A stretch of 5,489 bases of DNA from Candidatus Sumerlaeota bacterium. Lineage in GTDB: Bacteria > Sumerlaeota > Sumerlaeia > JAFGJS01. A model generated the notes under the pieces. It saw only the letters and a program-made list of their open reading frames with translations, was not told the DNA's origin and did no database searches. Made by a program: the position numbers and the translations under genes. The stretch is taken from positions 1 to 5,489 of the forward strand of contig JAFGJS010000023.1 in the NCBI GenBank assembly GCA_016928995.1, given 5' to 3'. Below are positions 4,051-5,489 of this stretch, piece by piece (position 1 is the stretch's first letter; the number at the start of each line of letters is the position of its first letter).

Positions 4051-5250
4051 ATGAACACGCAACAATTTCCATTTCGCAAAATCCTGCTCGCCATCTATCT
4101 GCCCAGCCTTCTGATCGCGATCGGCGCCGGGGCCATCATCCCCTTCCTGCCGCTCTTCATTCAGGAACTCGGCGCCAACGTCGGCCTGACCGGCCTCATC
4201 GTCAGCATGGGCGGCTTCGGACTTTTGATCTTCAACATCCCCGGCATCCTGCTCGCCTCCCGCTACGGAGTCTACCGCCTCCTGTTCGTCAGCGCCGCCG
4301 CGACCATTCTGGTCGCACTCCTGCAAGGCTTCAGCGTCAACCTGCTCATGCTCGCCATCCTCATCTTCCTCGGCGGCTTCGCCCACACCCTCTGGCAGCT
4401 CTCGCGCCTGACCTATCTGCGCCAGGTCATCCCCGTCGAAAAACGCGGGCGCGCCATGTCGCTCATGGGCGGATGCATGCGCATCGGCGCCTTCCTCGGC
4501 GCCCTCATCGGCGGCTACATCGCCCACTATTGCGGCTATCGCTGCTTGTTTTTCTTTCACGCCGGGGCCGGCCTGATCGCCTTCATCCTCCTCGCCCTGT
4601 TCATCATGCCGCTGGCCCATCGCCCGCCGGAAAAACATAGCTCAGGCTTGCCGGGGCTGCTGCGCGTGCTCTTACAGGAACGCCGCTCCTTCGCCACCGC
4701 CGGAACATGCATGTTCTTTCTCTCGCTGCTGCGGGCGGCGCGCTCCTTCATCATCCCGCTCTGGGGCAAGCACATCGGCCTGGACGACGCGCAAATCGGC
4801 GTCATCTTCGGCCTCTCCTCGGCCATCGACATGACCATGTTCATCCCCGCCGGCATCGTGATGGACCGCTTCGGGCGCCGCTATTCCGCCTTCGTCACCA
4901 TCGCCGGTTTCGCCATTGGTTTCCTGGCCATCCCCTGCGCCGGCAGTTTCGGCGCCTTTCTGGCCGTCTGCCTCTTCATCGGCCTGTCCAACGGCTTGGG
5001 CTCCGGCATCAACATGACCCTCGGCGTTGACCTCGCCCCGGACGACGCCCCCGAACAATTCATCGGCCTCTGGCGCCTGCTCACGCTGACCGGATCCGCC
5101 GTCGCGCCCAACATCATCGGCCTTATCGCCCTGATGCTCAACCTCTCCGCCTCCTCGCTCGTCACCGGCGGACTCGGCGCCGCCGGAGCCGCCTTCGTCT
5201 ATTTCATCCTGCCCGAAACCTTGAAATCCAAATCTAAGAACGTCTCTTGA
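4051..5250 (+). CDS. Major facilitator superfamily transporter, DHA1-like, 399 aa
   Basis: This is a cytoplasmic-membrane secondary transporter with about 12 hydrophobic segments in two six-helix halves; the central loop spans about residues 189-212. The 399-residue length is typical of 12-TM MFS_1 drug or metabolite transporters. The second-half motif A is canonical (GIVMDRFGRR, 268-277). The first-half equivalent, LLASRYGVYR (67-76), has Ser in place of Asp and lacks the following basic pair. TM4 carries a motif-B-like LSRLTYLRQVIP with R119. TM5 has GAFLGALIGG (146-155), which matches the spacing of antiporter motif C but has Ala in place of the conserved Pro. The protein ends LPETLKSKSK, common in MFS C-termini. 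ATG 4051 is preceded directly by an in-frame TAA, so no longer start exists. By analogy an efflux or small-solute role is likely, but the substrate is unknown. Third positions are strongly C/G, unlike the gene at 80-2350. Confidence 0.93.
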   Translation: MNTQQFPFRKILLAIYLPSLLIAIGAGAIIPFLPLFIQELGANVGLTGLIVSMGGFGLLIFNIPGILLASRYGVYRLLFVSAAATILVALLQGFSVNLLMLAILIFLGGFAHTLWQLSRLTYLRQVIPVEKRGRAMSLMGGCMRIGAFLGALIGGYIAHYCGYRCLFFFHAGAGLIAFILLALFIMPLAHRPPEKHSSGLPGLLRVLLQERRSFATAGTCMFFLSLLRAARSFIIPLWGKHIGLDDAQIGVIFGLSSAIDMTMFIPAGIVMDRFGRRYSAFVTIAGFAIGFLAIPCAGSFGAFLAVCLFIGLSNGLGSGINMTLGVDLAPDDAPEQFIGLWRLLTLTGSAVAPNIIGLIALMLNLSASSLVTGGLGAAGAAFVYFILPETLKSKSKNVS

Positions 5251-5298: not shown

Positions 5299-5328
5299 AC
5301 CGCTGACCAGTACGCAAAAACATACGAG

Positions 5329-5333
5329 AAATG
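5329..5333. repeat. Left copy of candidate 5-bp target-site duplication
   Basis: The pentamer aaatg directly abuts the left terminal inverted repeat and recurs directly after the right one at 5481-5485, as expected for a duplication made on insertion. The identity stretches to agaaatgc in both copies, but the extra bases fall partly inside the terminal repeats or flank and may be chance. Confidence 0.55.
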
Positions 5334-5417
5334 CTTGCTCTGTTGAAAACCTATTTCGTACTCGTACTCAGCGTAGCGGCGCTCGTACTCGATTTGATCG
5401 CTATCTCGCTCGTTTGA
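5331..5417 (+). CDS. Doubtful 28-aa hydrophobic small ORF across the left end of the element
   Basis: ATG 5331 lies in the left flanking pentamer and reads into the element for 28 codons to TGA at 5415-5417. The peptide (begins MLALLKTYFVLVLSVAALVL) is almost wholly apolar, with one Lys near the start and one Asp at residue 21, so it would resemble a single membrane helix. The only purine-rich sequence is gag (5326-5328), 2 nt before the ATG, too close for normal ribosome binding. The apolar character comes largely from the ctcgta repeat, so a chance frame is the likelier explanation. Confidence 0.12.
   Translation: MLALLKTYFVLVLSVAALVLDLIAISLV
5334..5352 (+). repeat. Left terminal inverted repeat
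   Basis: This 19-bp arm, cttgctctgttgaaaacct, pairs without mismatch with 5462-5480. Pairing stops at both edges: 5333 G faces 5481 A, and 5353 A faces 5461 A. The repeat boundary is therefore sharp. Confidence 0.85.
5356..5391. repeat. Short tandem ctcgta units inside the element
   Basis: tcgtactcgtactc (5356-5369) and ctcgtactcg (5382-5391) repeat a tactcg hexamer around a GC-rich core that can form an agcg/cgct mini-stem (5370-5383). The repeated unit explains the Val-Leu alternation of the small overlapping frame. Confidence 0.5.
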
Positions 5418-5456
5418 AACTGATGTTCGAGAACGAGGACAAGGTCGAGCGAGATA
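5402..5456. repeat. Internal inverted repeat of the MITE-like element
   Basis: tatctcgctcg (5402-5412) is the reverse complement of cgagcgagata (5446-5456), a perfect 11-bp stem enclosing 33 nt. The loop contains a small gttc-ga-gaac dyad at 5425-5434. The stem lies off-centre, in the right half of the element, which gives it an asymmetric fold. Confidence 0.65.
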
Positions 5457-5461
5457 TCACA

Positions 5462-5480
5462 AGGTTTTCAACAGAGCAAG
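5462..5480 (-). repeat. Right terminal inverted repeat
   Basis: This is the exact reverse complement of 5334-5352. It is followed at 5481-5485 by the second copy of the flanking pentamer aaatg, only four bases before the window ends. Confidence 0.85.
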
Positions 5481-5485
5481 AAATG
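5481..5485. repeat. Right copy of candidate 5-bp target-site duplication
   Basis: aaatg follows the right terminal repeat with no gap and matches 5329-5333, supporting insertion with a 5-bp staggered cut. Confidence 0.55.
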
Positions 5486-5489
5486 CCAG

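Follow-up and report, generated by a model that had tools for sequence, protein, structure and literature searches.

A short multi-copy element in a Candidatus Sumerlaeota genome, with the ends and target duplication of IS5-family elements

Near its right-hand end, the window (the whole stretch of 5,489 nucleotides analysed here) carries an inverted pair, 5334-5352 and 5462-5480, that on checking the sequence is perfect over 19 bp, and aaatg adjoins both of its members (5329-5333 and 5481-5485). The question is what this structure is, what may have moved it, and what lies between its ends. An earlier note on the window read it as a 147-bp MITE with 19-bp ends and 5-bp target duplications, recently inserted or else held by selection on a hairpin, and belonging to a family that it could not name. 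What that note described is there: the inverted pair, aaatg, an 11-bp internal stem, tactcg units, and no transposase ORF within the element. The length of the duplication and the bounds of the element had to be revised.

Copies and boundaries of the element

The element is a multi-copy one, and its paired ends are not a product of chance, as had been argued from the single copy. A search for further copies, which the earlier note had proposed, returned 30 related stretches at the level of BLAST matches in the host genome (G000; 4.55 Mb in 161 contigs, the assembly being estimated as 92.5% complete), and 17 of these are two-ended. An 18-mer of the end matched this genome 34 times at no more than three mismatches, 17 times on each strand, and its reversed control not once. 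Aligned with their flanks, the copies have in common the terminal sequence and an interior module of hexamers. They are mostly intergenic on the gene calls of a basic ORF picker, which cannot stand in for proper annotation. A 5,496-bp end pair on contig C97 was rejected as one element, since it consists of two separate MITEs joined.

Direct repeats were sought by comparing left with right flanks in 55 candidate copies from several genomes, among which are a few spurious or nested pairs. A single register was raised (d=12, that is, flank positions 2-10, or 9 bp), with the remaining registers at about 0.25. From this family-wide scan the target duplication is 9 bp long rather than 5, and the ends of the element are TGCTYTGTTGAAAA...TTTTCAACARAGCA. 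The window element therefore occupies 5336-5478, a length of 143 bp with perfect 17-bp ends (Table 1). The aaatg makes up positions 3-7 of the duplication. The CT/AG at the outer edge of the "19-bp ends" also belongs to the duplicated target; it was mistaken for the end of the element because targets prefer the palindromic AG-N5-CT, with a T-rich flank on the left and an A-rich flank on the right. Both the boundary and the duplication length are thus corrected relative to the single-copy reading.

The other copies bear this out. Eleven of the 17 two-ended copies have a 9-bp duplication matching at seven or more positions, where about 0.02 would be expected (a binomial estimate; equal base frequencies are assumed for expected values of duplications here and below), and the duplication is exact in five copies besides that of the window. 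The other six have no recognisable duplication (at least three mismatches in nine). The data neither require nor show a recent insertion: median identity among the 17 copies is 77%, no other copy exceeds 91% identity with that of the window, and the window copy's own two duplications, which agree at eight of nine positions, already hold one mismatch. The contig stops at 5489, so the right flank is cut there.

Taken together, the element is short (MITEs measure about 50-500 bp), lacks a transposase, and has terminal inverted repeats, a target duplication and dispersed copies. Its description as a MITE without transposase stands, with the dispersed, duplication-flanked copies just described and with complete elements that have the same ends in other genomes.

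Table 1. Features of the element and its flanks in the window
Feature	Position	Strand	Basis or remark
Left 9-bp target duplication AGAAATGCT	5327-5335	.	Flank scan peak exactly 9 bp; window copy 8/9
MITE, 143 bp, TGCTCTGTTGAAAACCT...AGGTTTTCAACAGAGCA	5336-5478	+	30 related stretches in host genome, 17 two-ended
Left terminal inverted repeat, 17 bp, TGCTCTGTTGAAAACCT	5336-5352	+	Common to complete IS5-family elements
Left conserved core TGCTYTGTTGAAAA	5336-5349	+	Mean conservation 0.89, n=17 copies
Right terminal inverted repeat, 17 bp; conserved core 5465-5478	5462-5478	-	Core mean conservation 0.92, n=17
Interior module TCGTACTCGTACTCAGCGTAGCGGCGCTCGTACTCG	5356-5391	+	0.93 conserved across copies (5358-5391)
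11-bp internal stem, left arm TATCTCGCTCG	5402-5412	+	Not conserved in most copies
Right-hand hexamer array GAGAAC/GAGGAC	5427-5448	+	Roughly inverse of the module's hexamers; unit number differs among elements
11-bp internal stem, right arm CGAGCGAGATA	5446-5456	+	Pairs with 5402-5412
Right 9-bp target duplication AGAAATGCC	5479-5487	.	Flank scan; 2 bases before contig end

Complete elements with the same ends

In a Planctomycetota genome, G142, a transposase-bearing IS5-family element with these ends is present in about 25 copies; its ends were counted at or close to the termini of contigs, 25 of one type and 29 of the other. In nineteen pairings of a left with a right junction the match is exactly 9 bp long, where 0.003 would be expected, and none was seen at 10 bp. 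One end carries the C-terminus of a DDE_Tnp_1 (PF01609) transposase and the other an N-terminus that can be aligned by eye with the Paludisphaera protein described below, the middle of the element being unassembled. At C106:1-430 of this genome (L313) and at L381:1303-2523, the transposase frame of IS5-type elements runs on through the terminal repeat, so that its stop would lie in or beyond the flanking DNA.

Two complete elements were reached via the closest plasmid relatives. The first, of 971 bp, lies on the Paludisphaera borealis plasmid PALBO1 (NZ_CP019083), has the ends TGCTCTGTAGAAAACC and an IS5 transposase, and is flanked by TCCCAATGT twice, an exact 9-bp duplication. Its end differs from that of the window MITE at one base over 16; it is unlike the MITE in its transposase, its Planctomycetota host and its interior, which is not common to the two. 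The second, of 995 bp, which also has these ends and bears a transposase, lies on a Roseomonas mucosa plasmid and is flanked by ACCCCGTTT twice, also an exact 9 bp. A Methanomethylovorans relative has similar ends and no clear duplication. A scan with NCBIfam NF033579, covering the transposases of Paludisphaera, Methanomethylovorans and IS903 and the G142 fragment, placed the first three above the cut-off of 140 bits (148.9 for Paludisphaera, 356 for IS903) and the fragment below it. A full-length transposon with these ends, which the earlier note had proposed to look for, is present in Paludisphaera and Roseomonas and, going by its assembled ends, in G142; none was found in the incomplete G000 assembly, which has no match to the G142 transposase protein and whose PF01609 and NF033579 matches do not lie between these ends.

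IS903 itself is like the window MITE in its ends (GGCTTTGTTGAATA against TGCTYTGTTGAAAA, 12 of 14 bases the same) and in its 9-bp duplication (GACACAACG twice), and its copy on Rts1 has GGCTTTGTTGAATAAATC together with a 9-bp duplication. Elements of the IS903 group are about 1,050 bp long, each with 9-bp duplications (PMC3281130). The two differ in that IS903 measures about 1,057 bp and encodes a transposase, whereas the MITE has 143 bp and none. The Planctomycetota transposases are distant, that of Paludisphaera having 25% identity with the IS903 protein over 148 aa. The 9-bp duplication, the GCTYTGTTGAA-type end and, in other genomes, an IS5-type DDE transposase between such ends all point to an IS5/IS903-like source. 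Going by sequence comparison, the element can be given a position next to the IS903 group within the IS5 family. That is further than the earlier note could go, although no family name was found for the element itself. Because its ends and 9-bp duplication match those of complete IS5 (IS903-like) elements of other bacteria, it is a passenger element of an ordinary kind.

The same ends also enclose other interiors. A scan of genome contigs with the 18-mer end gave 21 matches, near the chance number, with paired ends in Planctomycetota. Whole-genome counts of the end in two of those Planctomycetota genomes were 55 and 32, against 3 and 0 for the control. The Planctomycetota copies have unrelated interiors of 54 to 282 bp, and in many the 9-bp duplication is exact. 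Viral contigs gave 51 matches to a 16-mer of the end, about chance by our own estimate, and no pair with a matching duplication. One end type is found across G000, Planctomycetota and a Roseomonas plasmid, and what it encloses differs from genome to genome. In G062 (L149-L165), the hairpin CCCCGCTTTAGCGGGG of several MITE copies is, by eye, broken at contig ends by a repeat, apparently an insertion sequence, that starts with GGGCTTGTCGATTTAG.

Common ends, 9-bp duplications and dispersal mark the copies, and complete IS5-family elements elsewhere have the same ends and the same duplication length. We infer that an IS5-type transposase is the mover of the window element, and we are confident that this is a non-autonomous MITE that depends on an IS5-family DDE transposase of a kind near IS903. 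A transposase of the IS903-like kind would recognise the ends through the core TGCTYTGTTGAAAA, move the MITE in trans, and leave the 9-bp duplication at targets with a palindromic preference. The interior would then be cargo, an inverted hexamer-repeat module in G000 and unrelated hairpin sequences in other genomes. What this means is that an unnamed repeat has been set beside a known transposase family by a concrete test, that of the same ends and the same 9-bp duplication.

The interior module and the arrays beside IVP genes

The module inside the G000 copies (TCGTACTCGTACTCAGCG...) is conserved at 0.93, comparable to the terminal cores at 0.89 and 0.92. It is also found without these ends, with about 19 occurrences in G007, a relative from another family, and it adjoins an IVP gene at G000:C43; 294 Planctomycetota genomes and the viral contigs searched were without it. 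All three positive observations would suit a hexamer-repeat module that is a mobile unit in itself, that entered an IS5-type MITE originally lacking it, and that owes its dispersal partly to its own movement. We take this possibility seriously but think it unlikely, because the 9-bp duplication lies at the outer ends of the MITE, which makes the whole MITE the unit moved in these copies, and the module has yielded no demonstrable duplication or ends of its own. Descent by deletion from an element carrying an IVP gene was not adopted either, as none of the element's end pairs was found to enclose an IVP gene, for all that the module adjoins one at C43.

S23/IVP four-helix-bundle genes (PF05635) of G000 and its class relatives (L064-L070, L387-L414) are often flanked on both sides by arrays of 6-8 nt tandem units in inverted orientation, and the unit differs from locus to locus. 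For each gene, the 600 bases preceding it were compared with the 600 following it, and the one best inverted match was scored. At 21 of 31 loci this score was above 25.6 bits, the 95% point obtained from 150 mismatched pairings; the loci were the ones retrieved by searches, a non-random set in which several share a genome. No description of such arrays was found in the full-text literature, where titles and abstracts were skimmed and subscription journals were mostly outside the search, so this negative is no evidence that they are unreported. One could suppose that the MITE carries as cargo a repeat of a second kind with a dispersal of its own, namely inverted arrays of 6-8 nt units like those flanking S23/IVP genes, with a unit for each locus, that the IS5-type ends are the capturing vehicle, and that the arrays are parts of an IVP-linked cassette for which we found no description. 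We offer this as speculation and consider it improbable as it stands; the interior's link to the IVP-gene arrays is the part of this analysis that deserves further work.

Several further observations concern the interior. In G007 (L076-L097), for example at C4:24730-25427, copies of the module follow one another in a run with a spacing of about 165 bp. An extra GTACCGCGACCGTCAGGGAGCGGCC-like repeat is present in or beside the interior of three MITE copies (C141:15491-15803, C3:1704 and C62:47405; L009, L034 and L030). Among bacterial MITEs, BrickBuilt of Porphyromonas gingivalis is likewise small, multi-copy and intergenic, its inverted ends enclosing tandem repeats; it differs in its 23 nt repeat unit and its host, and the likeness is one of description (PMC4596501).

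Hairpin, recombination site or transposon end

The terminal cores are conserved in the manner of recognition sites. Perfect ends might instead be preserved by a hairpin transcript with a role in the cell (terminator, RNA stabiliser or regulator), transposition being their origin only. The predicted RNA fold of the region is indeed strong (z = -6.75), the copies sit mostly between genes, and it is on record that MITEs can influence the transcripts of their neighbours (PMC3733652). However, mismatches between arms average 4.06 of 17 within the same copy and 3.97 of 17 between different copies, and the window copy is the only one of 17 with perfect arms. Since arms differ within copies as they do between copies, selection on the hairpin is unsupported, with no sign of compensatory change. 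The 11-bp inner stem is not conserved in most copies, and a search inside the element gave no terminator-like site. We thus regard a hairpin role as very unlikely. The element region had no match in Rfam. Site-specific recombination (by a tyrosine recombinase, or integron attC or IMEX-like), with the repeats as overlap regions between half-sites that the inverted TTTNG / CNAAA around the duplication do resemble, is scarcely credible, given duplications that vary by locus and have the 9-bp length seen around complete DDE elements bounded by such ends, and a complete element that has a PF01609 transposase.

Elsewhere in the window, a 756-codon ORF with a TTG start occupies 80-2350 on the forward strand and is without a Pfam match at E 0.001. 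A gene at 4051-5250 encodes an MFS transporter and ends 85 bp before the element region.
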